DNA of 42,701 nt from a virus: the IMG/VR virus record IMGVR_UViG_3300025889_000238, positions 1 to 42,701 of that record; one strand, 5' to 3'. The notes under the pieces were generated by a model. The model ran no database searches, was not told where the DNA came from, and worked only from the letters and a program-made list of their open reading frames with translations. Positions 3,900 through 22,792 of the stretch are shown here, piece after piece. Both the position numbers and the translations under genes were made by a program. The stretch's first letter is position 1; every line of letters starts with the position of its first letter.

Positions 3900-5612
3900 A
3901 TGCAAGAAACAGAGATCAATGGATTCTTGATTGATGAATTCAATCAGTACAGCTTAGATACAAAGAAGACTCAAGGCATTTGTCCTCTTTGTTCACATGA
4001 TAGGCAACCCAAGAATCAGAAAGCACAATGTGCTTCTTACGATTGGGAACGTGGTCTCGGAACTTGTCACAACTGTAACACCACTTTTCAACTACATACT
4101 TACCAACGTAAGGGTTCTAGCGAAAGAGTTTATGTACGCCCTCAAGTACCATTGCAAACTAATAGACCTGATAACCCTAAAGTATTCAAGTGGTTTGAAA
4201 CAAGAGGCATATCTCAGAATACTCTCGAAGACTTAAAAATCACCGAGAGTTCTGAGTTCATGCCGCAGACCGGCAAAACCGAGAACACCATCAACTTTAA
4301 TTATTATATGGGTGATCAACTCATAAATATTAAATACAGAGATGGTCGTAAAAACTTCAAGCTGTACAAAGGTGCTGAGAAAGTATTCTATAATATAAAT
4401 AGCATAGTAGGTTATGACTCTTGTATTATAGTCGAAGGCGAAATGGATGTTCTAGCTTTGCATGAAGCTGGCATTAAAAATGCTATATCAGTACCTAACG
4501 GCGCGACTCTAACAAACAACAATCTGGATTACTTAGATAATTGTATTGATTATTTCGAAGACAAAGAAAAAATAATCTTAGCATTAGATAAAGATGAACC
4601 AGGTCAAATGTTACAGCAAGAGTTTGTTAGAAGACTCGGTGCAGAAAATTGTTTTATAGTAGACTTTGACGATTGCAAAGATGCCAATGAGTTTTTAGTT
4701 AAGCACGGCAAAGAAAAACTAAAAGATACAATTAATAAAGCAAGACCATATCCACTAGAAAACGTTACAACGTTTAAAGATATAGAGGGTGAGGTTACAG
4801 AGTTTGTAAAGCACGGTTTTAAACCTGGCTTTCAAGTAGGTCTAGACAACTTTGATCAGATATTTTCAACATATACTGGTCAATTTATTACGGTAACCGG
4901 TGTTCCATCGTCTGGTAAGTCAGACTTTGTAGATCAAATGGTTGTTGGTTATAACCAAAAGTATGGATGGAAGACTGCATTTGCGTCTCCTGAAAACCAA
5001 CCAACGTATCTACATGCACATAAGCTAATGCGTAAAGTATGGGGTGACATGCCTAGTATAAACGATATTGGTGGAAACAAATGGACAGAGGTTGCTGAGC
5101 ATGTTAATGATAGTTTCTTTTTCATTGACATGGACAAGTATGACTTAGACTCGGTACTCAAAAAGGGTGCCGAGCTAGTCAAACGTAAAGGTATTAAATG
5201 CCTTGTTATTGATCCTTATAATAAAGTAAGAGACATAAACGCAGCATCAGATGATGTGAACCGTTATACAATGGATTACTTAATGAAGATCGAAACGTTT
5301 GCTAAGAAGTACGATGCTTTAGTATTCATAGTAGCACATCCAACAAAAATGATGAAGAACCAAAACGGCAAGATTGAAGAGCCTACGATGTACAACATCA
5401 AGGGTGGCGGCGAATGGTATGATGCTAGTTACCATGGGTTATTAGTCCACAGAGACTACGAAGCTAAGAACACTAAAGTAAAAGTATTGAAGGTTAAGTT
5501 CCAGAACCTTGGTGAAAACGGTGCTGAAGCATTCTTCACGTGGGAACCTAAGTCTGGAAGATTTGTACCACAAGCTAATATAATGGAAGAAGACTCGTTG
5601 CCATGGGAGTAA
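3900..5612 (+). CDS. Bifunctional DNA primase-helicase, T7 gp4-like (570 aa)
   Basis: The domain order is that of T7 gp4. An N-terminal zinc ribbon has Cys28-x2-Cys31 and Cys56-x2-Cys59. The TOPRIM primase core follows, with IIVEGEMDVLALHEAG near residue 177 (catalytic Glu) and LALDKDEPG near 230 (D-x-D type). The C-terminal RecA/DnaB-type helicase has a Walker A, GVPSSGKSDF near residue 335, a Walker B-like LVIDPYNK, and the conserved FIVAHPTKM motif. It would unwind the fork as a hexamer and lay primers. No DNA polymerase is seen in this window, so polymerase must be outside it or supplied by the host. The start has the leader AATTAAATTAA, without SD. Confidence 0.92.
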   Translation: MQETEINGFLIDEFNQYSLDTKKTQGICPLCSHDRQPKNQKAQCASYDWERGLGTCHNCNTTFQLHTYQRKGSSERVYVRPQVPLQTNRPDNPKVFKWFETRGISQNTLEDLKITESSEFMPQTGKTENTINFNYYMGDQLINIKYRDGRKNFKLYKGAEKVFYNINSIVGYDSCIIVEGEMDVLALHEAGIKNAISVPNGATLTNNNLDYLDNCIDYFEDKEKIILALDKDEPGQMLQQEFVRRLGAENCFIVDFDDCKDANEFLVKHGKEKLKDTINKARPYPLENVTTFKDIEGEVTEFVKHGFKPGFQVGLDNFDQIFSTYTGQFITVTGVPSSGKSDFVDQMVVGYNQKYGWKTAFASPENQPTYLHAHKLMRKVWGDMPSINDIGGNKWTEVAEHVNDSFFFIDMDKYDLDSVLKKGAELVKRKGIKCLVIDPYNKVRDINAASDDVNRYTMDYLMKIETFAKKYDALVFIVAHPTKMMKNQNGKIEEPTMYNIKGGGEWYDASYHGLLVHRDYEAKNTKVKVLKVKFQNLGENGAEAFFTWEPKSGRFVPQANIMEEDSLPWE

Positions 5613-5881
5613 ATAAAAATATACAGCAATATACAATGTCAGATGAAGAATTAAAAGCTTCTGCTTGGTGTGTTCGAAACAAGATATGTATTACTGCAAG
5701 AGAGTCTGGATATAGAACCAATAGATATTATATTGATATAGAAAAAGGAGACTATCCTAATCGAGTATTAATAGGTTCAACTAAAGAGACTTATAAATTT
5801 CCAGAGCAACAGAAAAAATTAGCTGAATATAAAATGTATTATTACAAGAAATATGCGGACGAAGTTCAAGAACGCAAGTGA
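5603..5881 (+). CDS. Hypothetical protein (92 aa)
   Basis: It starts 10 bases before the end of the primase-helicase gene and ends 29 bases into the TS-like gene, so it is locked between two strong genes. Features visible: a Trp/Cys segment (ASAWCVRNKICI), a Tyr/Arg-rich middle (YRTNRYYIDIEKGD) that looks like beta strands, and a helical, Tyr/Lys-rich C-terminus. I do not recognise a family. The double overlap and absence of rare codons support it as a real translated gene, perhaps an accessory to replication or nucleotide metabolism. Confidence 0.65.
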   Translation: MGVNKNIQQYTMSDEELKASAWCVRNKICITARESGYRTNRYYIDIEKGDYPNRVLIGSTKETYKFPEQQKKLAEYKMYYYKKYADEVQERK

Positions 5882-6497
5882 AGCATTTGATTATTTATAT
5901 ATCAAGATTAAAAACACTGGTATAGAATTTGATAATACTAAAGCTTTATTTAACGTAGGCTTCTATTTAAACAAACCACAAGAAACATATATAAAGTCTG
6001 GCTTTAGAAAATGGAATAAGCTATATGCACAAGCCGAATGGCAATGGTATTTATCTGGTGATAGAAAAGTTGAAACACTTGGAAACATATACGGTAAAGT
6101 TCCTGAAATATGGCAAATGATGGCTGACGAAAATGGCGAAGTTAACTCTAACTATGGTTGGCAGTGGCAAAGAGAAGACCAATTAGATAAGGTAATAGAA
6201 AAACTAAAATCAAATCCTAATACTAGACACGCTGCAATAAGTATATACGATGGTAAAGAGATAAACAAATACAGCAAAGACACGCCATGTACTTACGCAG
6301 TTCAATTCACAATCATAGATGATAAATTAAATATGTCTGTGTATATGAGGTCTAATGACTTATGGTTTGGCTTTTGTAATGACCAATACCAATTTAGCAT
6401 GCTGCAGCAAGGAGTTGCAGAAGAGCTAGGCATAGAAGTCGGATGGTACTATCATCACGCTCACAACATGCATTTATATAAAGACAAAATAAAATAA
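5853..6497 (+). CDS. Thymidylate synthase-fold enzyme, probable dCMP hydroxymethylase (214 aa)
   Basis: The thymidylate synthase superfamily is clear: IWQMMADENGE and NSNYGWQW, the nucleophile Cys146 in DTPC, the phosphate-binding Arg166-Ser167-x-Asp169, and His207-x-Tyr209. These residue numbers coincide with E. coli ThyA. Position 177, which is Asn in thymidylate synthases and selects uracil, is Asp here (GFCND). An Asp at this place is the known hallmark of dCMP hydroxymethylase (T4 gp42 Asp179) and of engineered TS variants that prefer dCMP. I infer use of dCMP and formaldehyde-donating folate to make hydroxymethyl-dCMP. The protein is about 50 residues shorter at the C-terminus than ThyA and has His instead of the second Arg of the Arg126-Arg127 pair. 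The alternative is a divergent dTMP synthase. Confidence 0.8.
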   Translation: MRTKFKNASEAFDYLYIKIKNTGIEFDNTKALFNVGFYLNKPQETYIKSGFRKWNKLYAQAEWQWYLSGDRKVETLGNIYGKVPEIWQMMADENGEVNSNYGWQWQREDQLDKVIEKLKSNPNTRHAAISIYDGKEINKYSKDTPCTYAVQFTIIDDKLNMSVYMRSNDLWFGFCNDQYQFSMLQQGVAEELGIEVGWYYHHAHNMHLYKDKIK

Positions 6498-7282
6498 TGT
6501 ATTATCTATATCATATACCCGGTAAAAAAATCGGAGTAACACAAAACCCAGAAAAAAGAATAACTAAAGAACAAGGCTACAAAGAAGGCGAGTACGAAGT
6601 CTTATTAAAGACAGATGACATAAACATAGTATCTGATCTTGAATTAAGACTACAGGAAAGCTTTGGCTATCGAAGAGATATGCAGCCTTACAACAAAGTG
6701 ATTAAACGAAAAATGAAAATAAACGTAACAGAACAAACCACCACATTCCCATGCCCATTAAATAAATTAAAAGGTAACTTAATGGATAATCTAGGCTTAA
6801 AATGGAAAACACAATTCGGCTTATTTAAGTTATCAGAGAGGACAATATCTTGGATCGTAGCAAATTCAAAGGTATCAATGTATAATCCAGAGCGTTGCTA
6901 CATATATAACAAAGCTTATTTCGAAGCATTTGCTCCAGACAAATACGACATCAATGGAGCTAAGTCAGTCGTTGATATGCCTAAGCCTGCTATCTTTGAT
7001 GCAATCAGGATGTGGGCAGAAGAACGAGGTATATATGATAAAGGCGATGCCAAGACACAATATGTAAAGTTAGCTGAAGAGTTTGGCGAGCTTGCTAAAG
7101 CTCTATTAAAAGATGATCAACCAGAAATTATTGATGCTATCGGTGATATGGTTGTCGTGCTCACTAACTTAGCACATCAACGTGGTGTAAACATTGAGGC
7201 TTGTATTCAATCAGCTTATGATGTTATTAGTAAAAGAAAAGGTAAGATGGTTAACGGAACATTTGTAAAAGATGAAGACTAA
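6497..7282 (+). CDS. GIY-YIG-like nuclease domain fused to MazG-type NTP pyrophosphohydrolase (261 aa)
   Basis: The N-terminus (residues 1-75) reads MYYLYHIPGKKIGVTQNPEK, a GIY-YIG-like start (YLY...KIGVT.N...R), followed near residue 52 by DLELRLQESFGY carrying the Glu expected for metal binding. A middle segment (about 76-150: TTTFPCPLNKLKGNLMDN, PERCYIYNK) is one I recall accompanying this N-terminus in marine phages. The C-terminus (about 165-255) is MazG-like: KLAEEFGELAKALLKDD and DAIGDMVVVLTNLA, giving the E-x-x-E...D metal-binding pattern. MazG enzymes convert dNTPs or alarmones to monophosphates, so it could feed dCMP to the TS-like enzyme immediately upstream (start overlaps the previous stop). 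The joining of nuclease and pyrophosphohydrolase is unusual. Confidence 0.75.
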   Translation: MYYLYHIPGKKIGVTQNPEKRITKEQGYKEGEYEVLLKTDDINIVSDLELRLQESFGYRRDMQPYNKVIKRKMKINVTEQTTTFPCPLNKLKGNLMDNLGLKWKTQFGLFKLSERTISWIVANSKVSMYNPERCYIYNKAYFEAFAPDKYDINGAKSVVDMPKPAIFDAIRMWAEERGIYDKGDAKTQYVKLAEEFGELAKALLKDDQPEIIDAIGDMVVVLTNLAHQRGVNIEACIQSAYDVISKRKGKMVNGTFVKDED

Positions 7283-7568
7283 TTATAGAGTTAAAACAGA
7301 AGATACCATTGTTCAATCAGTCATTGAAAAGATGGACAGACGCAGTGAGTTCGGCATGAAGAAATATGGCAAGGCCATGATTGAAGAAGTACAAACAGGA
7401 GAGAAAGACTTACATGCTTTTATAGTTGACGTACAAGAAGAATTAATGGATGCATTGTTGTATTTAGAGTCAGCTAAGATGTGCTTGCAGCTAGAAGTAA
7501 ACAAGGCTATGCTAAGTCAAACTGATCCATTAAAGTTTGCTAAACGCCATGAAAACAAAGTCGTTTAA
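7272..7568 (+). CDS. Small helical phage protein, possibly MazG-related (98 aa)
   Basis: A helical protein with a conserved-looking pattern: R..FGMKKYG near residues 24-33, then DLHAFIVDVQEELMDALLYLE at 48-68. The E-E-L-M-D-A repeat resembles the metal-binding helix of all-alpha NTP pyrophosphohydrolases, and proteins of this pattern are common in phage nucleotide-metabolism clusters. Its start overlaps the end of the GIY-YIG/MazG gene by 11 bases, and its end overlaps the resolvase gene by 20 bases. It may be a second pyrophosphohydrolase or a partner subunit. The assignment is tentative because only one of the two usual acidic motifs is evident. Confidence 0.6.
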   Translation: MKTNYRVKTEDTIVQSVIEKMDRRSEFGMKKYGKAMIEEVQTGEKDLHAFIVDVQEELMDALLYLESAKMCLQLEVNKAMLSQTDPLKFAKRHENKVV

Positions 7569-8004
7569 AAAACACAAAGGTCCAGTAAGGTCTAAGCGAA
7601 CAACATACGACGGAATAAATTTTGCATCTGGTCTAGAAAAGTATATGTATACCGCATTGAAAAAAGCAAACATAGACTGTCTATACGAGGGAGAAACATT
7701 TGAATTATCAGAAGGCTTTGACTTTCCATTTGAATGTTATGAACGATGCAGCAACGGTAAAGGAGAATTTAAAAACAGAGGTAACTCTAAGGTTTTAAAT
7801 ATCAAGTACACCCCAGACTTTATAGGTAAAGGGTTTGTTATCGAATGTAAGGGAAGGGCAAATGAGTCCTTCCCGTTGCGTTGGAAGTTGTTTAAGAAAT
7901 TAATCAAAGAAAGAAAGCTAGGACCTTACACTTTGTATAAACCACAAAATCAAAAGGAATGCGATCAAGTAGTGAGCTTAATACTAGGCAGCAAAAAGAA
8001 TTAG
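7549..8004 (+). CDS. T7 endonuclease I-like Holliday junction resolvase (151 aa)
   Basis: The catalytic set of T7 endonuclease I can be placed: Glu30 in FASGLEKY, Asp90 in KYTPDFI, and Glu99-x-Lys101 in VIECKGR, matching T7 Glu20, Asp55, Glu65 and Lys67. The insertion between the first and second motif is longer than in T7. The enzyme should cut branched DNA so that replicated concatemers can be packaged, and may also help degrade host DNA. I chose the ATG at 7549, which overlaps the previous gene by 20 bases; an in-frame TTG at 7537 is less likely. It overlaps the small gene downstream by 46 bases. Confidence 0.82.
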   Translation: MKTKSFKKHKGPVRSKRTTYDGINFASGLEKYMYTALKKANIDCLYEGETFELSEGFDFPFECYERCSNGKGEFKNRGNSKVLNIKYTPDFIGKGFVIECKGRANESFPLRWKLFKKLIKERKLGPYTLYKPQNQKECDQVVSLILGSKKN

Positions 8005-8281: not shown

Positions 8282-8387
8282 GGAAAAAGTAAAACGTAAA
8301 CGCAAAGGCGTACATTCTAAAAACAATACATCAAGAAATAAAAATAGTAGAAATTATGTTAAAAAATATAGAGCACAAGGTAGATGA
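8256..8387 (+). CDS. Tiny highly basic protein (43 aa)
   Basis: Of 43 residues more than a third are Lys or Arg; the core reads KRKRKGVHSKNNTSRNKNS and the end KKYRAQGR. The ending KGVHSK..TSR.KNS.NY.K.YR.QGR is a pattern I know from small proteins encoded beside nrd genes in marine phages. It is likely to bind nucleic acid or be structurally disordered. Its stop forms an ATGA overlap with nrdB, so it may help set nrdB translation. Confidence 0.62.
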   Translation: MRLQLTTNREKVKRKRKGVHSKNNTSRNKNSRNYVKKYRAQGR

Positions 8388-9343
8388 GTTTATTTGAAGA
8401 AAGACTAGCATATAAACCATTCGAGTATCCAGAGTATTATACAGAAGGATGGCTTAAACAAGCACAAGCATTTTGGTTACACACAGAAATACCAATGCAA
8501 GGTGATGTTAAAGACTGGAACGAGAAACTAACTGATGCTGAAAAGAACCTGGTAGGAAATATCCTACTAGGTTTTGCTCAGACAGAATGTGCAGTATCAG
8601 ATTACTGGACTCAAAAGGTTACAACTTGGTTTCCTAAACATGAGATCAGACAAATGGCTATGATGTTTGGTAGCCAAGAAACAATACATGCAGTAGCATA
8701 CAGTTATTTAAATGAAACATTAGGACTTGAAAACTTTGAAGCATTTATTCATGAGCCTGCTACGGCCGAAAGGTTTGAAAACCTTGTAGCTTACGATGGT
8801 ACTGATCCTGTTGGTATTGGTAGATCACTAGCTATATTCAGCGCGTTTGCTGAAGGAGTTTCATTGTACTCCGCTTTCGCTGTGCTTTATAGTTTCCAAC
8901 TTAGAAATATGCTAAAGGGCATCGGACAGCAGATGAAATGGTCTGTAAGAGATGAGAGCTTACACAGTCGTATGGGTTGTAGATTATTCAGAGACATGTG
9001 CAATGAAATTTACGGCTTAAAATATCAGTGTGCTGACGAAGTTTTAGAAGCAGCAAAGACAATGATCGATCTTGAAGATAAATATATTGATAAGATGTTT
9101 GAGATGGGTGATATTGAAAACTTAAAGTCATACGACTTAAAACAGTTTATAAGAAAGAGAGCAAATGAAAAACTCAATGAGCTCGGTTATGAATCACATT
9201 TCTCGTTTGACGAAGAAGCAGCAACTAATCTTGATTGGTTCTATCATCTTACCGGCGGGCATACTCATACCGATTTTTTTGCGATGCGCCCAACTGATTA
9301 CTCGAAAGCTAATGAAGGCGAAGACTTTGAGGATATATGGTAA
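8384..9343 (+). CDS. nrdB: Ribonucleotide reductase small (beta) subunit, class I (319 aa)
   Basis: The ferritin-like di-iron ligands can be read: Glu68 (in FAQTECAVSD), Glu99 and His102 (in SQETIHAVAY), Glu in FSAFAEGVSLY, and Glu and His in VRDESLHSRM. Tyr106 sits four residues after His102, as the radical Tyr122 does in E. coli NrdB. The first ligand is Glu rather than the usual Asp84, with the same 31-residue spacing to the next. The subunit makes the radical used by NrdA, encoded downstream, to reduce ribonucleotides for phage DNA synthesis. The gene begins in an ATGA overlap and its end overlaps the membrane gene by seven bases. Confidence 0.93.
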   Translation: MSLFEERLAYKPFEYPEYYTEGWLKQAQAFWLHTEIPMQGDVKDWNEKLTDAEKNLVGNILLGFAQTECAVSDYWTQKVTTWFPKHEIRQMAMMFGSQETIHAVAYSYLNETLGLENFEAFIHEPATAERFENLVAYDGTDPVGIGRSLAIFSAFAEGVSLYSAFAVLYSFQLRNMLKGIGQQMKWSVRDESLHSRMGCRLFRDMCNEIYGLKYQCADEVLEAAKTMIDLEDKYIDKMFEMGDIENLKSYDLKQFIRKRANEKLNELGYESHFSFDEEAATNLDWFYHLTGGHTHTDFFAMRPTDYSKANEGEDFEDIW

Positions 9344-9588
9344 GCAAAAAGCAAATACTTAAATCACTAGTTGGTGATAAAAAGCTTACATCTTTTCAGC
9401 GTGTAGCTAGAAGATTAGGTTATATGGGAACGGGATTTTTAATAGCAGGGCAATGGACCCTGCACCCACCCATGTTTGTGATAGGATTTATTTTAGTAAT
9501 AACACAAGTCGCAGCACGTAAGCAATGGAATTTAGTATTGCTATATTTAAACGGCTTAGCTGCTTGGCTTTTACATTTAATATATTAA
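9337..9588 (+). CDS. Small membrane protein between nrdB and nrdA (83 aa)
   Basis: After a basic N-terminus (SKKQILKSLVGDKK and RVARRLG) come hydrophobic segments at about residues 29-40, 45-60 and 64-82 (MFVIGFILVITQVAA; LVLLYLNGLAAWLLHLIY). This predicts two or three membrane helices with a cytoplasmic basic start. It overlaps the end of nrdB by seven bases and stops one base before the nrdA start, so the three genes are almost certainly co-translated. I do not recognise a family. A membrane anchor for reductase or a holin-like protein are guesses only. Confidence 0.7.
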   Translation: MVSKKQILKSLVGDKKLTSFQRVARRLGYMGTGFLIAGQWTLHPPMFVIGFILVITQVAARKQWNLVLLYLNGLAAWLLHLIY

Positions 9589-9589
9589 T

Positions 9590-11287
9590 ATGTGGAATAA
9601 CGAATGGATAAAAGGAGTTGATTACCCAGAGTGGGGTGACAACGAAATATATAAAAAGACTATTGGTGGACAGTACCTATTGCCTGGTGAGTCTCCAGCT
9701 GATGCGTACATGCGTGTCTGTAAGACCGTATCGATGCGTCTAGGACGCCCAGAACTGACCGAAACTTTTTACGAATATGTATGGAAGGGTTGGTTGTGTT
9801 TAGCGTCCCCTGTGTTGTCTAATACAGGCACAGAGCGTGGCTTACCGATTAGTTGCTTTGGCATTGATGTCGGAGATAGTATATACGAAATAGGAAATAA
9901 AAATTTAGAGATGATGCTACTCGCAAAGCACGGCGGCGGAGTTGGCATTGGAGTTAACATGATTAGACCGGCAGGTAGTAAGATAAAACAAAATGGAACA
10001 TCAGATGGAGTCGTCCCCTTCTGCAAGATCTACGATTCAACGATCCTTGCAACGAATCAAGGAGCAGTTCGACGTGGAGCTGCGTCAGTCAATATCAACA
10101 TTGACCACGACGATTTTGAGGAGTGGCTTGAAATACGAGAACCTAAAGGAGACGTCAACAGACAGAGCCTTAACCTTCATCAATGCGCAGTTGTTGGTGA
10201 TAAGTTTATGCGAAAGCTTGAACAAGGAGATGTTGAAGCAAGATCTAAATGGAGTAAACTTATTAGGAAACGAAAAGCAACTGGAGAACCTTACATCTTG
10301 TTTAAAGGAAATACAAACAAGTCAAATCCAAAAGCTTACAAAGACAATGGCCTAAAGGTACATATGACAAACATATGCAGTGAGATTGTTCTACATACAG
10401 ACGAGTCTCATAGTTTTGTTTGTTGCTTATCATCTTTAAACCTAGCTAAATACGATGAATGGAAAGATACAAATATTATTTATGACTCTATATGGTTCCT
10501 TGACGGAGTACTTGAAGAGTTTATACAGAAAGCTAAAGGTAAGATCGGCTTTGAGAATGCTGTACGTTCAGCTGAAAAAGGTAGAGCCATTGGTCTTGGC
10601 GTACTTGGATGGCACACATATCTTCAAGAGAAAAGAATACCGTTTGAAGGATTGTTTTCTCAGTATGAAACAAGAAAAATATTCTCACAGATTAAGATTG
10701 AATCAGAGAGAGCGAGCATGGATCTGGCTGAATATTTTGGTGAGCCTTTGTGGTGTGCTGGCACGGGCATGCGTAACACTCATCTTCGCGCTATCGCTCC
10801 TACTGTTAGCAATAGTAAGTTGTCTGGTAATGTTAGCCCCGGTATTGAGCCTTGGGCTGCTAATATTTTTACTGAGCAGTCTGCTAAAGGAACTTTTATA
10901 AGAAAGAACCCTACGCTAGAAAAGCTGTTAGAAGAAAAAGGCTTTAACAATAAAGAAACTTGGGATAAAATACTTCACGATGGCGGATCAGTTCAAGACT
11001 TAGATTGTCTTACGCCAGAAGAAAAAGATGTATTCAAAACATTTAAAGAGATTAATCAACTAGAGTTAGTTAATCAAGCTGGAATACGACAGCAGTATAT
11101 AGATCAAAGCGTTAGTTTAAACCTTGCTTTCCCTAGTGAAGCATCACCAAAGTGGATTAACAAAGTTCATATGGAGGCTTGGAAGAAAGGAATAAAGACA
11201 CTGTACTATATGCGAACAGAGTCTGTGCTGCGAGGAGATATAGCAGCTAAAGCTTTAGATGAAACTTGTATAAGTTGTGATGGATAA
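9590..11287 (+). CDS. nrdA: Ribonucleotide reductase large (alpha) subunit, class I (565 aa)
   Basis: Key residues of the ten-stranded barrel are present: the first redox Cys in PISCFG, the active-site loop NICSEI with Cys263 flanked by Asn and Glu two residues away on either side, the second redox Cys in SFVCCLSSLNL, and the radical-relay Tyr pair in TLYYMRTES. The C-terminal dithiol is CISC. At 565 residues the protein starts directly at the catalytic domain and lacks the N-terminal ATP-cone, so it is expected to escape dATP feedback inhibition, as in other phage reductases. It acts with NrdB to supply deoxyribonucleotides. The last bases overlap the secreted-protein gene. Confidence 0.93.
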   Translation: MWNNEWIKGVDYPEWGDNEIYKKTIGGQYLLPGESPADAYMRVCKTVSMRLGRPELTETFYEYVWKGWLCLASPVLSNTGTERGLPISCFGIDVGDSIYEIGNKNLEMMLLAKHGGGVGIGVNMIRPAGSKIKQNGTSDGVVPFCKIYDSTILATNQGAVRRGAASVNINIDHDDFEEWLEIREPKGDVNRQSLNLHQCAVVGDKFMRKLEQGDVEARSKWSKLIRKRKATGEPYILFKGNTNKSNPKAYKDNGLKVHMTNICSEIVLHTDESHSFVCCLSSLNLAKYDEWKDTNIIYDSIWFLDGVLEEFIQKAKGKIGFENAVRSAEKGRAIGLGVLGWHTYLQEKRIPFEGLFSQYETRKIFSQIKIESERASMDLAEYFGEPLWCAGTGMRNTHLRAIAPTVSNSKLSGNVSPGIEPWAANIFTEQSAKGTFIRKNPTLEKLLEEKGFNNKETWDKILHDGGSVQDLDCLTPEEKDVFKTFKEINQLELVNQAGIRQQYIDQSVSLNLAFPSEASPKWINKVHMEAWKKGIKTLYYMRTESVLRGDIAAKALDETCISCDG

Positions 11288-11693
11288 AAAAATGATCAAT
11301 AAAATTATATTTACATTAGCACTTACATGCGCGTCTTTGAATGGGCAGTATGTTAAAGTAGCAACACACTATGATGCAGAGCAAACTGCAAATCAAATAA
11401 TAAAAGGTAAACTAAATAAATATTTAAATAATAAATTAGATTTTTCGTTTGAAAAAAGAAAAAATAAATTTATAGATAAATACGACGTTGAAGCAGATCA
11501 TGTAGAAAAACAAGTATATAAATATTTTGATAAAGGAAAACCAGAGTATATATCTAAAACCAACGGTGGTTATACGTTTACTATAGCCGTCATAAACAAT
11601 AAAGACGATACTGATATATTGTATTATTGTTCTTTCGCGTTGGACGCTTTTACTTCAAAAATAAAAAGTGTAGAAATAGACAAAGGTTATTAA
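11280..11693 (+). CDS. Secreted or periplasmic protein of unknown function (137 aa)
   Basis: The ATG at 11280 overlaps the end of nrdA by eight bases. The N-terminus (MDKKMINKIIFTLALTCASL) is a typical signal peptide: basic start, hydrophobic core, and a plausible cleavage after NGQ near residue 23. A Cys in the core does not fit a lipobox well. The mature part is Lys- and Tyr-rich with a predicted helix (KLNKYLNNKLDFSFEKRKNK) and a beta-rich C-terminus (GGYTFTIAVINN, ILYYCSFALDAF). It is the last gene before the convergent terminator. An exported phage protein here could act in the envelope, for example in superinfection exclusion; that is inference. Confidence 0.72.
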   Translation: MDKKMINKIIFTLALTCASLNGQYVKVATHYDAEQTANQIIKGKLNKYLNNKLDFSFEKRKNKFIDKYDVEADHVEKQVYKYFDKGKPEYISKTNGGYTFTIAVINNKDDTDILYYCSFALDAFTSKIKSVEIDKGY

Positions 11694-14887: not shown

Positions 14888-17800
14888 TTATCTATCTACC
14901 ACGTTAATCTTTCTTCTATATGGATCTTTGGATTTACGATTGAACCCTCTTGAAGAATTAGATCTTTTTTCTTTTTTATCTTTTTCCTCTTCAATTCCTA
15001 ATTCCCATGACTGCCAACCAGCTAGTAGTGCTATACGTTCTTGCATTTCTAAGTCTTGACTTAGCGCATCGTTTACGTTGTTAATTTTCTTTATGACCCT
15101 ATCTAATGGAATATTAGTTGTTGCAGATATAACATTACCAGCAGCTAACCACGCTGGGTTGTCTAAGCTAAATCCTTTTTGTTTCATTTCGTCTGAATTC
15201 CATTGCACTTCTCTAGCGGCTTGGTTTATACGTGAAAGTTTAGAAGCTATAGGTGGAGATAATTTAGTTAATTCAAACGCTACCTTTTCGTATTTAGGTC
15301 TATCTTTTTGAGACTCATTGTACACTCTAAGTCCAGCATTTTTAACTACAGCAACTGCAGCACCTGATACACCCATACCTCTTAATACACCATCCGCCAT
15401 ACCATTGCCTAGTCTTACCATCTTCTCTGTCTTCTCATCTTCGTCGTCTAAGTCTGCTGCAAATAATGCTTGCTGTATAGCGTTAAATATAAATCCTTGA
15501 ACAGCGCCATAATAAATTATCTTAGATATATTAGTTTTAGCATCACCTCTACCTGCCATTAAGTCTTGAGAAGCTTTCTTTATTATTCTAGCATACTGAC
15601 TAGGCGTGTTAGCAAATGCCAATACAACTCTACCTAGTGGTCCAGATTGTTGCTTTGATATTCTGTCTGGTCGTGATGACTGCTGTGACTCTTCTGCTGT
15701 TTCTCTAAAATCTAAGAAAGCTTTTTCTTTAGCTTCAGTCTCACTCATGCCTTGCTTAATGTAGCTTTTAATCCTATTTCTATAAAAAGTAGCGCCGCCA
15801 GAAGCGATAGCAAAGCTATCTGCAATTTGTGTAGGAGTAAAACCTTTTTGTAACAAATAAGATATAGCACCTTTTGCTCCGCCTTTATTAGCCATATCGG
15901 CAATATCAGACTCGTTTATAGTTATAGTGGCATTGTCTCTACGTTCTTTTAAGAAGTCTGAATTGAATAGCTCTTTAAAGTCTTTCCAATACTGAGGTTG
16001 GTTAGCAAAAGCTTTACCAGCGGCAAGTATATTATTGTCTTTGAAGTTTATAAAGTTAACAGCCGACAAAGTCTGTAACACAGCTGATCTAGTATTTAAG
16101 AACATGATCGCACCAATACTACCGTTCAACCAGTCCATCATTCTACCTGTTGTAGAATCACCAGCATAGTTTCTATTCTTACCAGACTTCATACGCTGAA
16201 GCATGTTTTCCAAAGCCTCTCTATAGGGCTTACCATGTATAGCCTGTAACTTGTTTAAGTTCTTTTCAGAGAATATAGCATCTACATTTTGTTGCCACTC
16301 TTCAAGATGCTTGGCTCGCTTTGTGCCGCCAAGTCCATCCATTAAGTCAGTGGTAATGCTGCCTGCTAACCAATAGTCTTTTGGCTTTGGATAACCATCT
16401 CCTTTGTTTATTTCTATAAGTTGATCTGCAAATACATTCAAGCTAGCATCTGACTCTACATATTTAATCATGTCTGCTAAGTCAGCTTTACTTAAACCAG
16501 GTATATCCATACCTTGCTTATTCCATATATACATACGTATAGCCTGCTCCTTAGTGAATCCTTCGCCTTCTATTTTCTTTCTAAGATTTTTAGGAACAAT
16601 CCCTAGTTTATTTTTGAGGGCTTTATAATCTGCAGCTAATGAAACTCTTTCTGAAGATATGTTGTTCATAGCTCTAGCGTATGGATCAAGCAAGTTCTTT
16701 TTATACCACGCCATTTGGTTATCACCAAGCTCTCCTTTTGCCAGTGTACTATATAGTAACCCAACGAAGTCATCTGCTGATGGTGGAATAAACCACTTGA
16801 ATTTACCTTGGCTTGATCCAACTACTTCTGCTTTAGCTTTTGAGTATGTTTTCTCAGATGCAATACCAGATTTAGCTTCTAAGATGTCATTCATTTCTTT
16901 ATCCATCTTATCATATATATCTTTGTATACAATGCGCTCTTTAGATTTAACATCTAAGACTTTCATTGCATCTTGAACAGCTTTCACATTCTTATATGCA
17001 TCATCTGTAAAGTAAAAATCATTGTAACCTTCAGCGGCTTTATCAACCATCCATTGTGCCTTAGCTTCAGGCGCACTGTTAGCTAAGCCAGTTATATTTT
17101 CCAATGGGATCTCATAACCAAGCCCTTTTAAAAACTCATATATTGCCGATGCTGAATTAGCAGGTCTAGCAGTTAACACAAACACATCTTTGTTACCAAA
17201 CTTCTTTATAGCTTTATCTAGCTTCGCAATTAAAGGACCAGGCTTACCATCAACAACTTTGCTAAAATCGCTAAAGTCAAATGTTGCACCTTGTTCTAGT
17301 AAGTCTTCTCCAGTTTTTGCAAACTCAGTGGCATCAATTTTAGTTTCAGTACCATCGGGCATTGTTACACCGACCATGCTTTTAGTAGTAGCAAGCGTGT
17401 CGTCAAAATCAAATACAGATATACCTTTTATAGGCGCTTTATTATTACGAGCATTACGCAAAGCCTTATCATAATTATTTAGATTGTTTAATACTTGATC
17501 ATTAGTTTTACTAGCTTTACTAATTATACCGCTTGGCGTTTTACTTATGTTTGATTTAGATGCTTTAGATTTTCCAGCTGTTGTTTTTGCATATTTAGCA
17601 CCGTATTCTCTCATTTGGTCTAAAGTTGTATCTCCAGAAAACAACTTTCTTACCATTTCTTTTTGAACTTTAACTGGAACAGATTTATTACCGAAAAAAT
17701 ATTCACCTAGGGTCTTATTAGCTGGCACATAAAATAATCTATTAAGATCTATGTCAGACTCAGTATATCTAATTATGGAAGCTAGACCTTGATCTAGCTT

Positions 17801-20800
17801 TAGCTTTCCGGTTATTATATCTTCTAGTCTGTCTAACAATGCGTCTGGCGGAGTTTTCTTATACTTGACATTAACCATGTCATCTAGCTCTTTGGATATA
17901 AACCCTTGCATTGATACCGCTCTAGCTATGTCTATAGCTTCTTTTAAGTATCCATTTTTAACTCCACCAAGAAGCAATGTAGCTACTAAGTTTTGAGGCA
18001 TAAAATGCTCTTCAACACCTTTTACATCTGTTATAGGCTCTTCTGTTTCTATATCAACTTCGTATACAAGTCTAGGAAAGCTAGATCTTGAAAAGTGTTT
18101 TTGGCTATTAGCTGCTTGCCTTACTATCTCCTGGAATGCCCAAAAGTCATTTTTATTTCCTGGCTTTTTTAAATACTTATCAACTGCTTTGTAAAAATCT
18201 ATCATATCTTCAAACCTTTTAAATTCTAACTCTGCAAAGTCAGATTTTCTAGATTCTTCTAGATATTTTTTAGTTAATAACTTTTTCTTTGTATACGAAT
18301 AGTTATCAGTTGATACTTGCTCTTGTCTTATGAGTTTATCTTTATCTATCTTTATGTTATTGGCCCATCCTTGTTGAGTGGCAAAAACAGCTCTGTCTAA
18401 TCCAAATGTAGAAGATATTCTTAACATTTCATGAAACTTTGGATTTTGCTCTAAGAAATTATTTAATACTCTACTTATACCTTGAATAACTGTTTCGCCT
18501 TCAAAAGCAGCTATACTTTCAGGTAGTTTTTTATTTCTATCGTATATGGCTTTTTGTTCATCAGAGTCTTTGGTGTTAGCTGATATATTCATCAGCTCTC
18601 TAGCTTCTTTTCTACTTATATTAAGTGTAGTAACTATTAAATCTTCGAACACCCTGGTTTTTAGCATGTCTTCTCTAGCGATAGCAGCTGCTTTCTTAGG
18701 AGAAATGCTTAGCATAGCTTTTCGCTTACCAGCAGCAGCACGAGCTACATCTTCTTTAGCAAAGTTAGACGTACCCATCTCTTGTCTAATTAGAGTGTTA
18801 GCAGCAAGTGATGAATATGTTTTAGCCATACCTTTTAATAACTGCCCTATAGGACTACGTAGTTCACCTTTAGGTAAGACATTTAATTCCCCTTTTGGTG
18901 TTATACCTATATCAGATTTAATCTTGTCTATAGTCTCTTTAGTAACTACGCCTCTAAATTCTGGTTTCAATCTTTTTACAGGTACTTGACTAGTTAAACC
19001 TTTACTTCTACCTTTTGGGCTGGTAAGCCTACCAGTTGGATCTATAAAGTCTTCATAAAAATAATCTAATATTCTCTTAGGTAAACCAAGGCCAGTACCT
19101 TTAACATCTTTAGGCGTATCTAAGGTTTCTAATCCTATTTGAGTTTCAGGTAAAGCAATGTTAAACTCAGGAAGTATTTTAACAAACTTGTCTAAGTTGT
19201 CAGCCTTGAAGAAGAACTGCTGTATAGCTCTAGCCTCATTGACAGAGCCTAGATTAGCAGCAGACTCAGTAATCTTTTTAGCAGGTATACCAATGGCTTG
19301 CTCTCCAATCTCACCAGCATATTGCTTTGTAATAGTTTTAAATGTTGGCTTACCTTCAGGCTTCTTACTTAGTGTGATAGTTCCTGGTACACCAGTAAAC
19401 TTCAATGGATTTATAGTTGGCTTTTCTTTTATTCCAACTTCTTCTTGTGCCGTAACTTCTTGCTCTACGTCTGCTATTTGCTTTGTTGATTCATCTATTC
19501 TAGTTTCTTGAGATTTACGCTGTGACTCTTCAAATAATTTCTTTTTAGCATCGAGTTTACCAAATGCTGTATTAGCAAATATAAACTCACCAAAACCCTC
19601 AATACCAACTATTGATCCATCAGCGCGCTTGGCTTGAGGATCAAATGCCATAAGCCTATCAACTACAGAATCAGTTGCAGCTTCAGCCTCTTCTATGCTA
19701 GAAGTTCTTGACCTAATGTAATTATTAATAACACCACCTGGAAATGCAGTGGCATTATAGACCTCGTTAAATACTCTTGCATCTGCAAAGTCTTCTTTCG
19801 TGTTAACATTTTCAGGCACTAAATTGTTTATTTCTTCTAGTACCGTTTTAGAAGTCATTGCTTTTCTTTCAGCATCTACTTCTGTATCAGCAGTGGTTAC
19901 AGCTCCTTGCTCTAATGTATTTTTAAGCTTATTACTAAACTCTCCTTTGTATACAGACTTGTTGAAGTCTTTTATAAAAGAAAATACATCTTTACCAGAA
20001 TTGAATTTATATCTTCTATTAGGTATAACCTTATCTAATACAGACTTTATAGCATTACCTACTTTATCTAATGCAGTTTCAGAGATTATCTCAGAGTTAA
20101 TAAAACCTTTAGACATGGCATCGGAAAGAGCCGTTAAGAACTCTTCGGATTGTACATCTGTGCTTTGATCTTTGTAGTTTTCTAATACAGCGGATATATA
20201 ACCTCCTTCACCTGCTATGCTAGGACTTAATTCATCTAAGAAACCTTCTAAGCTATTCTTCATTTGATTAGCAAGCTCTGGGTTTTTCTTAAATGTATTT
20301 TTCAAGACTACGTGTAGCAACTCGTGTTGAGGTGCTGTTATAGCCTTTGTCTCTTTAGATACATCGCTATTAATAAATATTCTAGAAGATCCATCTTTCA
20401 TTTCTACCACGAAAGCATCTGACTGCTCTATATCACTGTCTGATGGTATATTTTCTACTTGCGACTCTATTTCTTTTACTTTGTTTTTTATTTTATCAGT
20501 TGCAGAAAGCTCATTGTCTTTTTCAAAGCTTTCCATAAGAACATTAGATTCTGTACTCGCGTTTAAATCATCTATTATTTTCTTTACGTTTTCAGAAGTT
20601 CTAGTTTTTATAGTTTCTCTACTAGCCGCTACTTCTCCTTGTTCTAATTTGTCGTCTATTTCTTTTATTTGTTTGTCTATGCGCTTAGTATATAAAGGGT
20701 CTTTGCCTTGCTTTTGCCTCATTAACCCTTGTTTTTGTCTTAACAAGTCTAATTCTTCTGGTGTTGCAGATTCAGGAGAAACATTTATTGCTAGCATTAG

Positions 20801-22792
20801 ATCTGAAGCATATTCCAAAGCTTTGTCATACTGATCATTTAGCTCTTTCCACTTTGCTTTTCTTTCAGGAGTTCTAGCTCTATCCATTCTTAATTGAGCT
20901 TCTCTTTTTTCCTCCTTCATTTGCTCTATTATTCCAGCTCCATTCTCTCTGTATGCTCTATATATAGCGCGTTTACTGTTTTTTAAATCTGCGCTTAATC
21001 CGAATGGTGCAAGAACTTCTGTCAATAGTAAAGTTCCTGCTACTATTTGAGATTGAGACTCGACGTTAAGTAATTCTCCTTTTCCTTTAACGCCTACGGC
21101 TAGCTTTGCTAAATCACCAAGGCCTGCTTCTACTTCTTCTTCGCCTATTTCCCCTATAGGTCTTATTATAAAAGCATTTGCTGCTGCTTTTATCTGCGCT
21201 TTATTTGTAGCTGATTTTAAGTTTTTGCCTAATGCAACAAGCGCGTTTTTACCTACAGATCCACCAAATAAATTAGCATCTGGCATTATGCCATTAGCTA
21301 ATCCAGTTGCGGTAGATTTAAGAAACCCATATGTAATAGCTTTGGCATCACTCAAACCCATTTCTTTACCTTCAAAGTAAGAATCTATAGAAGTCATTCT
21401 AGCACCTGCCTTCATCTGAGCCAGTCTACTAGTTGATAATTTAAACCTGCCTAACTGAGCAGCAGTACCGGTCGATCTAGCCCCTCTGCTAGCTATAATG
21501 CCTATTACAAATGGAAGCATTTGGGCAGTTGTTTTAGCTGCATTCTTGGCTTTAAATCCATCTCCGAAATCAAATGTGAAATCTTCAGACTTAGTTACGC
21601 CTAGCGGATTGCCGTCTGATATGTATTTTTTAAACATATCTAGCATTAAATCTCCACCAGTATAAACGTCGTCTGTTTTTTCTTTTATACCAACATCTTC
21701 TAGCAGCTCTGTGACTGCGTTGCCAAATAAAAAACCAGTACCAATAGTAGACTTTATAGGCACTTTAGCTAACTCTTGTAATAAAGTGGATGAAGCATCT
21801 TTAGAGACGTTAGTAAATCCACCTTTTTCCATTTCTCTATTTAAGTACTTTTCGTACTCATCTGTCATTTCAAAGTTGTTATAAAAAACGCTTTCAGCAG
21901 CATTAAAGTCGTACTCTGTCTGTAGTTGAAAAACCTTGCTGTTGTATTCTTTATATTTATTTTGCGCTTCTTCTTCAGTCATTTGCGAAAAGTCTATACT
22001 ATTAAACTCTTCTGTGACTTCGTTTATTCTATTTGATAAAGCTTTGCTTTTAGCTTTTGTTATTAAGTTTTCTTTAGAATCAATAGATCCAGTTAGCGTT
22101 AGTGTGCTTTCATAATTTGCATATCTATCTAACTTTTTCTCGTCTTTAGATATTTGTTCTATTAATTCGTTTTCTACATCTTCTTGAAGCTCTATTTTTT
22201 CATCTTCAGGAACAAATGTTATAGCAGTGACATCGCCTTTTGTAGCTGTCTTTATATTTTCTAAAGCTTTCTTTGTGTTTTGATATTTAGTATTTTTAAG
22301 CAATAGACTGCTTGGGCTTACTTGCTCTTCTTGTTGTAATGCTCTATATGCAGATGCTTCTTTGTGATCTAAGTAATACTTTACTTTTTTTATTTCTTTT
22401 TCAATAGCTTTAGCTTGCATGTCTTTAGCCATAGGGCTAAGTACTTTGCTTGCTTGTATTTCTTTAAGTTGAGAGTTGAGCTCTTGATACTTAGGATTAG
22501 TAGACAAAGCAAAGTCCATTGCTTTTTCTTCGTCTGTTCTATTTATAGATTTTATATCTTCTTCACTAAGCTCAAAGCCATACATGCTAGTGATAGGTGA
22601 CTCCGATGAAAAATCTCCCAAGTTGGAGACCATATCGTCTATAGATCCTGTGCTTGTCTCCGTCTTCACGGGATCTGTTATCTTTTTTGGCATATCAATT
22701 ATGCCTCTATCAAAGTCTCTTAGTTTTATTAGTATATCTTCTTTAGAGAAGCCTTGATCTGCTAGATATTTAATGTACTCTTTTTTGTCCAT
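14888..22792 (-). CDS. Giant multidomain virion/polyvalent protein with zincin and HAD phosphatase domains (2634 aa)
   Basis: One uninterrupted frame of 2634 codons. The first 400 residues are charged and coiled-coil-like. Residues about 425-620 contain Gly/Ala-rich hydrophobic stretches (MLPFVIGIIASRGARS; VAGTLLLTEVLAPFGL) that could insert in membranes. A zincin motif, His823-Glu-Leu-Leu-His827, is followed by a candidate third ligand at Glu883/884. A HAD hydrolase domain has Asp1795 and Asp1797 in VFDFDDTLA, Thr1874 in LTARP and Asp1930-Asp1931 in FTDDAY. The C-terminal 450 residues (about 2150-2600) resemble the large polyvalent-protein-associated domains of phages. It is the last of three ejection-type genes and likely enters the cell with the DNA, like T7 gp16. 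I saw no lysozyme, transglycosylase or RNA polymerase motif. Confidence 0.85.
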   Translation of the reverse strand: MDKKEYIKYLADQGFSKEDILIKLRDFDRGIIDMPKKITDPVKTETSTGSIDDMVSNLGDFSSESPITSMYGFELSEEDIKSINRTDEEKAMDFALSTNPKYQELNSQLKEIQASKVLSPMAKDMQAKAIEKEIKKVKYYLDHKEASAYRALQQEEQVSPSSLLLKNTKYQNTKKALENIKTATKGDVTAITFVPEDEKIELQEDVENELIEQISKDEKKLDRYANYESTLTLTGSIDSKENLITKAKSKALSNRINEVTEEFNSIDFSQMTEEEAQNKYKEYNSKVFQLQTEYDFNAAESVFYNNFEMTDEYEKYLNREMEKGGFTNVSKDASSTLLQELAKVPIKSTIGTGFLFGNAVTELLEDVGIKEKTDDVYTGGDLMLDMFKKYISDGNPLGVTKSEDFTFDFGDGFKAKNAAKTTAQMLPFVIGIIASRGARSTGTAAQLGRFKLSTSRLAQMKAGARMTSIDSYFEGKEMGLSDAKAITYGFLKSTATGLANGIMPDANLFGGSVGKNALVALGKNLKSATNKAQIKAAANAFIIRPIGEIGEEEVEAGLGDLAKLAVGVKGKGELLNVESQSQIVAGTLLLTEVLAPFGLSADLKNSKRAIYRAYRENGAGIIEQMKEEKREAQLRMDRARTPERKAKWKELNDQYDKALEYASDLMLAINVSPESATPEELDLLRQKQGLMRQKQGKDPLYTKRIDKQIKEIDDKLEQGEVAASRETIKTRTSENVKKIIDDLNASTESNVLMESFEKDNELSATDKIKNKVKEIESQVENIPSDSDIEQSDAFVVEMKDGSSRIFINSDVSKETKAITAPQHELLHVVLKNTFKKNPELANQMKNSLEGFLDELSPSIAGEGGYISAVLENYKDQSTDVQSEEFLTALSDAMSKGFINSEIISETALDKVGNAIKSVLDKVIPNRRYKFNSGKDVFSFIKDFNKSVYKGEFSNKLKNTLEQGAVTTADTEVDAERKAMTSKTVLEEINNLVPENVNTKEDFADARVFNEVYNATAFPGGVINNYIRSRTSSIEEAEAATDSVVDRLMAFDPQAKRADGSIVGIEGFGEFIFANTAFGKLDAKKKLFEESQRKSQETRIDESTKQIADVEQEVTAQEEVGIKEKPTINPLKFTGVPGTITLSKKPEGKPTFKTITKQYAGEIGEQAIGIPAKKITESAANLGSVNEARAIQQFFFKADNLDKFVKILPEFNIALPETQIGLETLDTPKDVKGTGLGLPKRILDYFYEDFIDPTGRLTSPKGRSKGLTSQVPVKRLKPEFRGVVTKETIDKIKSDIGITPKGELNVLPKGELRSPIGQLLKGMAKTYSSLAANTLIRQEMGTSNFAKEDVARAAAGKRKAMLSISPKKAAAIAREDMLKTRVFEDLIVTTLNISRKEARELMNISANTKDSDEQKAIYDRNKKLPESIAAFEGETVIQGISRVLNNFLEQNPKFHEMLRISSTFGLDRAVFATQQGWANNIKIDKDKLIRQEQVSTDNYSYTKKKLLTKKYLEESRKSDFAELEFKRFEDMIDFYKAVDKYLKKPGNKNDFWAFQEIVRQAANSQKHFSRSSFPRLVYEVDIETEEPITDVKGVEEHFMPQNLVATLLLGGVKNGYLKEAIDIARAVSMQGFISKELDDMVNVKYKKTPPDALLDRLEDIITGKLKLDQGLASIIRYTESDIDLNRLFYVPANKTLGEYFFGNKSVPVKVQKEMVRKLFSGDTTLDQMREYGAKYAKTTAGKSKASKSNISKTPSGIISKASKTNDQVLNNLNNYDKALRNARNNKAPIKGISVFDFDDTLATTKSMVGVTMPDGTETKIDATEFAKTGEDLLEQGATFDFSDFSKVVDGKPGPLIAKLDKAIKKFGNKDVFVLTARPANSASAIYEFLKGLGYEIPLENITGLANSAPEAKAQWMVDKAAEGYNDFYFTDDAYKNVKAVQDAMKVLDVKSKERIVYKDIYDKMDKEMNDILEAKSGIASEKTYSKAKAEVVGSSQGKFKWFIPPSADDFVGLLYSTLAKGELGDNQMAWYKKNLLDPYARAMNNISSERVSLAADYKALKNKLGIVPKNLRKKIEGEGFTKEQAIRMYIWNKQGMDIPGLSKADLADMIKYVESDASLNVFADQLIEINKGDGYPKPKDYWLAGSITTDLMDGLGGTKRAKHLEEWQQNVDAIFSEKNLNKLQAIHGKPYREALENMLQRMKSGKNRNYAGDSTTGRMMDWLNGSIGAIMFLNTRSAVLQTLSAVNFINFKDNNILAAGKAFANQPQYWKDFKELFNSDFLKERRDNATITINESDIADMANKGGAKGAISYLLQKGFTPTQIADSFAIASGGATFYRNRIKSYIKQGMSETEAKEKAFLDFRETAEESQQSSRPDRISKQQSGPLGRVVLAFANTPSQYARIIKKASQDLMAGRGDAKTNISKIIYYGAVQGFIFNAIQQALFAADLDDEDEKTEKMVRLGNGMADGVLRGMGVSGAAVAVVKNAGLRVYNESQKDRPKYEKVAFELTKLSPPIASKLSRINQAAREVQWNSDEMKQKGFSLDNPAWLAAGNVISATTNIPLDRVIKKINNVNDALSQDLEMQERIALLAGWQSWELGIEEEKDKKEKRSNSSRGFNRKSKDPYRRKINVVDR

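Follow-up and report, generated by a model that had tools for sequence, protein, structure and literature searches.

Most of what is known about cytosine hypermodification comes from T4-like phages. From the ternary complex of T4 gp42, a dCMP hydroxymethylase (dCH) signature has been proposed that combines an Asp (or Glu) at the third position ahead of the catalytic Cys with a Ser-x-Tyr motif and the absence of a C-terminal lid; in T4, Asp145 activates the substrate water, and the D145N mutation abolishes activity (PMC6400193). Position 177 governs the choice of base but does not set the last chemical step: an ordinary thymidylate synthase (TS) bearing the N177D mutation methylates dCMP (PMC8670742). 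The MetaGPA study found that positions 147 and 177 best separate the TS proteins of cytosine-modified contigs from those of unmodified ones, and that the domains linked to modified contigs include PF01503 (PRA-PH), dCMP deaminase and DNA ligase (PMC8670742).

The window, that is, the whole stretch of DNA analysed here (42,701 bp), is an entire virus record (G000), but is probably a fragment because most of its near relatives are 52-71 kb long. Its gene at 5853-6497 (plus strand; ATG at 5853, TAA ending at 6497) encodes a predicted dCMP hydroxymethylase of 214 residues with the TS fold. In a profile search the product matched PF00303 (E=1.3e-29; 103.6 bits for a cut-off of 24.3) and PHROG 160, phage thymidylate synthase (1e-44). 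The score above the curated cut-off and the presence of the catalytic Cys with the Arg/Ser/Asp set place it in the TS superfamily, and its AlphaFold model had a pLDDT of 92.2. A scan of viral contigs gave 405 candidate stretches that were confirmed as relatives; 80 loci, with 64-93% identity, were retained, and the residue counts below refer to these 80 homologues plus the window protein (n=81). Most relatives start at the position equivalent to 5853, and their commonest length is 213 residues. The nearest named relative, with about 44% identity, is a TS-like protein of the Bacteroides phage BF486P2 (WAX06796; L082 20001-20681), which shares the signature residues and an FCNDQY motif. BF486P2 differs in belonging to another phage group and in having a dUTPase and a second, divergent TS-like paralogue. 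In this second paralogue (L082 17168-17929), the folate Glu is replaced by Leu and the Trp by Tyr, while the Cys, Asp143 and Asp177 are kept; judging from these residues, it may have been misannotated as a dCMP hydroxymethylase.

We aligned the window protein with E. coli ThyA (L106) and T4 gp42 (L103) using MAFFT. The initial annotation had assigned ThyA-equivalent Cys146, Arg166, Ser167, Asp169, His207 and Tyr209, with Asp177 at the position of ThyA Asn177 and T4 Asp179, and the alignment bore out each of these. The remaining active-site residues that we listed are Glu62, Trp87, Ser99-Asn-Tyr101, Arg125, Asp143 and Thr147. All 81 sequences have the cytosine-recognition Asp177, which excludes a single aberrant sequence or an error at this position, and also Asp143 (three residues ahead of Cys146), Ser99 and Tyr101 (the Ser/Thr-x-Tyr of T4 positions 94 and 96), Thr147, the folate-activating Glu62, and the Trp87/Asp169/Tyr209 set. 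The TS C-terminal tail is missing: 5 residues follow Tyr209, as compared with 55 in ThyA and 28 in T4. Met90 occupies the place of the site-shielding Trp83 of TS (Val85 in T4), and position 126, the second phosphate-binding Arg of ThyA and T4, is His, Gln or Lys in the window family; this departure counts against the hydroxymethylase assignment, although SPO1 gp29 is likewise without Arg there (Gln).

The closest solved sequence was that of T4 dCH (1b49; E=1.5e-20). T4 gp42 (1b49, 6a9a) and the window protein have in common the fold, the mechanistic residues (Glu60, Trp82, Ser94, Tyr96, Asp145, Cys148, Asp171 and Asp179 in T4), a reduced C-terminus and an NSNYGW motif; they differ in overall sequence (about 30% identity), in length (246 residues in T4 vs 214) and in the number of residues after the Tyr (28 vs 5). 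The deep branches of the TS-fold tree were not separated, and both common descent with T4 gp42 and convergence fit the data.

The initial annotation had read Asp177, the cytosine-selecting residue, as pointing to a probable dCMP hydroxymethylase. This holds for the choice of cytosine, but Asp177 alone also fits dCMP methylases and AfhB, and we therefore examined further signatures. ThyA, which methylates dUMP, has Leu at the position three residues before the Cys and Asn177; SPO1 gp29, a dUMP hydroxymethylase, has Asp and Asn177; T4 gp42 and the window protein have Asp at both. Thus, across these sequences, the first position separates the chemistry from the base choice made at 177, and because SPO1 gp29 has the water-activating Asp together with Asn177, it is the Asp143/Asp177 pair that specifies a cytosine hydroxymethylase. 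SPO1 gp29 also shares the folate-activating Glu, but has Ala for Ser99 and a long C-terminal extension. A dUMP hydroxymethylase of the SPO1 type (Asn177 with Asp before the Cys) was rejected on account of Asp177 in the window protein.

A dCMP methylase, an activity reported from phage XP12, would form 5-methyl-dCMP by hydride transfer, and Asp177 by itself fits such an enzyme, given the conversion of TS by the Asn177 to Asp change (PMC8670742). We consider it very unlikely here, as three TS elements that contribute to hydride transfer, and that are altered in T4 dCH (PMC6400193), are not found in the window protein: Leu143 is replaced by Asp143, Trp83 by Met90, and the C-terminal lid is missing.

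The structure comparison of the AlphaFold model was headed by AfhB (9iqc; Z 24.0) in a virtual tie with MilA (23.8), and T4 dCH scored lower (20.9). AfhB, which binds FAD (9iqc, 9iqu), shares with the window protein the fold, the catalytic Cys and the Asp at 177. An enzyme of this type (Mosigvirus / RB69) would be an FAD-dependent dCMP 5-hydroxylase making 5-hydroxycytosine, to be glycosylated directly on the ring. However, a Mosigvirus TS-like protein nearly identical in sequence to 9iqc/9iqu, and only 23% identical to the window protein, has lost folate-handling residues that the latter has: the folate Glu is Phe, Trp82 is Ala, Asp171 is Asn and Tyr209 is Phe; furthermore, Asp145 is replaced by Glu and Ser94 by Thr. 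All of the residues altered in AfhB are retained in 81/81 members of the window family, so that its active-site pattern is not that of AfhB, and MilA superposed better on the model (rmsd 1.7) than AfhB did (2.2). This makes the hydroxylase highly improbable, and since the folate-handling residues lost in AfhB are kept throughout, the window protein is expected to use methylene-tetrahydrofolate (methylene-THF).

MilA (5b6d) was the best match in the PDB profile search (E=1e-24) and in Foldseek, and resembles the window protein in its fold, in the Asp at the cytosine position and in the Cys-Thr pair at and after the catalytic Cys. A MilA-like hydroxymethylase would act on the ribonucleotide CMP for a nucleoside or RNA purpose. 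In contrast with MilA, which has a long helical C-terminus and belongs to an antibiotic gene cluster, the window protein is encoded in a DNA-replication operon. In addition, the ribose determinants of MilA, Ala176 and Lys133, are replaced by Ser167 and Arg125, which is the deoxy-preferring state (PMC5175136); because of this replacement dCMP is predicted to be preferred over CMP, and the ribonucleotide enzyme is left with a very slim chance. Finally, an ordinary thymidylate synthase supplying dTMP, as one might expect from its being the sole TS in nearly all related genomes (no second TS in 40 records, bar one contig with two identical-scoring matches near its ends), from the absence of ThyX in the same 40 records and from the adjacent ribonucleotide reductase (RNR), is hardly credible with Asp177, Thr147, Asp143 and Ser99 invariant in 81/81 sequences, with the Asn177, Leu143 and catalytic C-terminal lid of canonical ThyA all lacking, and with a score that, like those of T4 gp42 and SPO1 gp29, falls far short of every thymidylate synthase equivalog cut-off in NCBIfam.

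We conclude that the protein is in all likelihood a dCMP hydroxymethylase acting like T4 gp42, as the initial annotation had proposed from Asp177, with a probability of about 0.85 based on the conserved Asp143, Ser99/Tyr101, Glu62 and Trp87/Asp169/Tyr209 and on the lost tail; the hydroxymethylase pathway as a whole is held only slightly less firmly. In the mechanism that we propose, Cys146 would attack C6 of dCMP, Asp177 would bind and protonate the cytosine ring, and Glu62 would activate 5,10-methylene-tetrahydrofolate. A water molecule activated by Asp143, and held with Ser99/Tyr101, would add to the exocyclic methylene in an active site that the missing lid leaves open to water, and the products would be 5-hydroxymethyl-dCMP (hmdCMP) and THF rather than a methyl group and DHF.

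The gene is part of an operon with a conserved order: primase-helicase, a 92-residue ORF, TS, MazG protein, a 98-residue ORF, DUF1064 nuclease and RNR. In the window, a T7-like primase-helicase with Toprim and DnaB_C/KaiC domains lies upstream (3900-5612, plus strand). Downstream, on the same strand, are the MazG protein (6497-7282), a conserved 98-residue protein to which no function was assigned (7272-7568), a DUF1064 nuclease-like protein (7537-8004; PF06356, E=1e-6; phrog_190, Holliday junction resolvase), and the small (NrdB, 8384-9343; PF00268, E=1e-57) and large (NrdA, 9590-11287; PF02867, E=1e-96) subunits of a class I RNR. The RNR (8384-11287) and MazG domain that the initial annotation had placed in the operon are thus both there, and in the same direction; the RNR would provide deoxynucleotides. 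A class II B12-dependent RNR (PF21995, phrog_367) takes the operon position of the class I enzyme in L100 (3638-5506; G021), L051, L053, L056, L063 and L069. NrdA is followed in the window by a 138-residue ORF (11277-11693) that, judged by eye, has a likely signal peptide; none of the five relatives compared has a homologue of it. Further on, the structural gene block contains an ORF of 2634 residues (14888-22792, minus strand) with homologues of 41-73% identity in 5/5 relatives compared.

The protein encoded at 6497-7282 consists, according to Pfam and Foldseek, of a T5orf172/MUG113-like N-terminal domain and a C-terminal MazG/PRA-PH domain (residues ~166-248), and is a candidate dCTPase. Its gene directly follows the TS gene in 76 of the 77 loci with room for it, with a median gap of 6 bp. 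Frames of ~480-490 residues in some relatives, which could have indicated a stop-codon reassignment across the TS stop, turned out to be a TAG followed immediately by the MazG ATG, i.e., tandem genes. PF01503 and PF03819 were found in 47/47 members scanned, and T5orf172, which we take to be a domain of the GIY-YIG superfamily, in 12/47 at E<=0.1 (best 5.6e-5). In the L018/L019 lineage the MazG domain alone follows TS, indicating that the pairing can do without the N-terminal domain. The top Foldseek matches of the MazG part were RS21-C6/DCTPP1 and mouse dCTPase, with marginal scores (best E 1.6e-3). According to the T4 record annotation, gp56 removes dCTP, yielding dCMP; by analogy, we put at about even odds that the MazG domain is a dCTPase, in which case it would both supply the substrate of the hydroxymethylase and lower dCTP. 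The arrangement of a T5orf172-like domain, an unassigned middle part (~66-165) and MazG beside a hydroxymethylase may parallel the pairing of dC-DNA nuclease and dCTPase functions in T4.

At the genome level, the likeness with T4 extends to the pyrophosphatase gene, the RNR and, in the closest relatives of the window, a dCMP deaminase. In the closest full relative (G001), the genes for this deaminase and for an ATP-dependent DNA ligase precede the part that matches the window. The TS proteins of MetaGPA modified contigs similarly have Asp177, a changed residue 147 and PRA-PH, dCMP deaminase and DNA ligase domains (PMC8670742); Asp177, Thr147 and these associated domains are all present, either in the window itself or among its closest relatives, the difference being that no carbamoyltransferase was found in the related records searched.

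Unlike in T4, there is no adjoining glucosyltransferase in the window, and no gp1-type kinase or phage polymerase was found. The absence of a T4-type hmdCMP kinase and glucosyltransferase, already pointed out for the window, extends to the 27-32 longer related contigs that we searched, which are possibly incomplete records. The gp1-family dNMP kinase (PF21448) was found in 0/32 of them and T4 beta-glucosyltransferase (PF09198) in 0/27, the positive controls T4 and Enterococcus phage vipetofem both matching; thymidylate kinase, carbamoyltransferase and DNA polymerases of family A (PolA) or B (PolB) were also absent from the related records searched (27-32). Enterococcus phage vipetofem and Lactobacillus phage ATCCB (L107, L109) have TS-like genes with Asp143, Ser99 and Asp177 beside T4-type beta-glucosyltransferase genes; although recorded as thymidylate synthase, these are probably dCMP hydroxymethylases, to judge from these residues. 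Because no phage kinase or polymerase was found, host or unrecognised phage enzymes would be needed to phosphorylate hmdCMP and incorporate it, giving 5-hydroxymethylcytosine (5hmC) in virion DNA. We think that 5hmC is rather likely to be present there, and it may protect the DNA from restriction and other bacterial defences. Among the options for the downstream steps, the initial annotation had named novel ones, which is an overstatement: simpler options are that the host supplies the enzymes or that the 5hmC stays unglycosylated.

A putative glycosylation cassette occurs only in some relatives, the window phage being without it. In 20/80 loci, the genes after the RNR encode a JmjC_2/cupin protein, another cupin, a conserved GT8-like protein (identified by eye) and a GT29-like protein (e.g., L029 6910-9524; L045 11819-16646; L026 15280-19176), and some members insert a DAHP/KdsA-family synthase, a KdsB-like cytidylyltransferase and a methyltransferase. 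The GT29 match was seen in one member (L026; PF00777, E=2.4e-6), and the two putative glycosyltransferase families had no relatives in the PDB profile search. From its gene content the cassette looks like a CMP-Kdo-type sugar pathway. The sugar could be added to DNA, but a role in modifying host LPS or the virion is at least as likely.

We also counted palindromes in 47 relatives (16 kb each). None of the C-containing 4-bp palindromes was strongly depleted, and GATC was over-represented (2589 observed vs 2152 expected; O/E 1.20), whereas it was depleted in 5/5 phages whose terminases are related and in which the stretches read contained no TS match. This pattern is suggestive of modified DNA, but we give it little weight: a difference in hosts would explain it equally, and T4 and BF486P2 are themselves GATC-depleted, which runs counter to the argument. 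MW202828 (L102, L104), a related podovirus from spring water that has ThyX, has a genome of 60,850 bp, in the whole of which GATC was found 0 times for ~193 expected and CCGG 0 times for ~26. CATG was absent from 50 kb of Flavobacterium phage elemoD (L110).

The window phage is an uncultured marine podovirus whose relatives infect Flavobacteriia. Its terminase matched only phages of Flavobacterium, Cellulophaga, Tenacibaculum and Maribacter and one unassigned spring-water contig, from which a Flavobacteriia host is likely. We found no prior report in the literature of a dCMP hydroxymethylase in Flavobacterium phages; as far as we found, the enzyme type is known already and its presence in this marine phage group is apparently new. 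In its most extended form, which we regard as unlikely, our proposal would be that marine phages with terminase relatives in Flavobacteriia-infecting phages use a minimal hydroxymethylase and a nuclease-like/MazG fusion to replace cytosine by 5hmC, that the host phosphorylates and polymerises the nucleotide, and that a sub-lineage adds a CMP-activated acidic sugar by means of the cupin/JmjC, KdsA-like, KdsB-like and GT29-like cassette after RNR.

The residues equivalent to Glu58, Leu143 and Asn177 provide a quick means of telling methylases, hydroxymethylases and hydroxylases apart among TS-fold phage proteins. The apparent absence of a phage kinase and polymerase would allow a direct test of which enzymes phosphorylate hmdCMP and incorporate it. 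The full hydroxymethylase signature across 80 loci suggests that 5hmC-based protection is common in this uncultured marine phage group.
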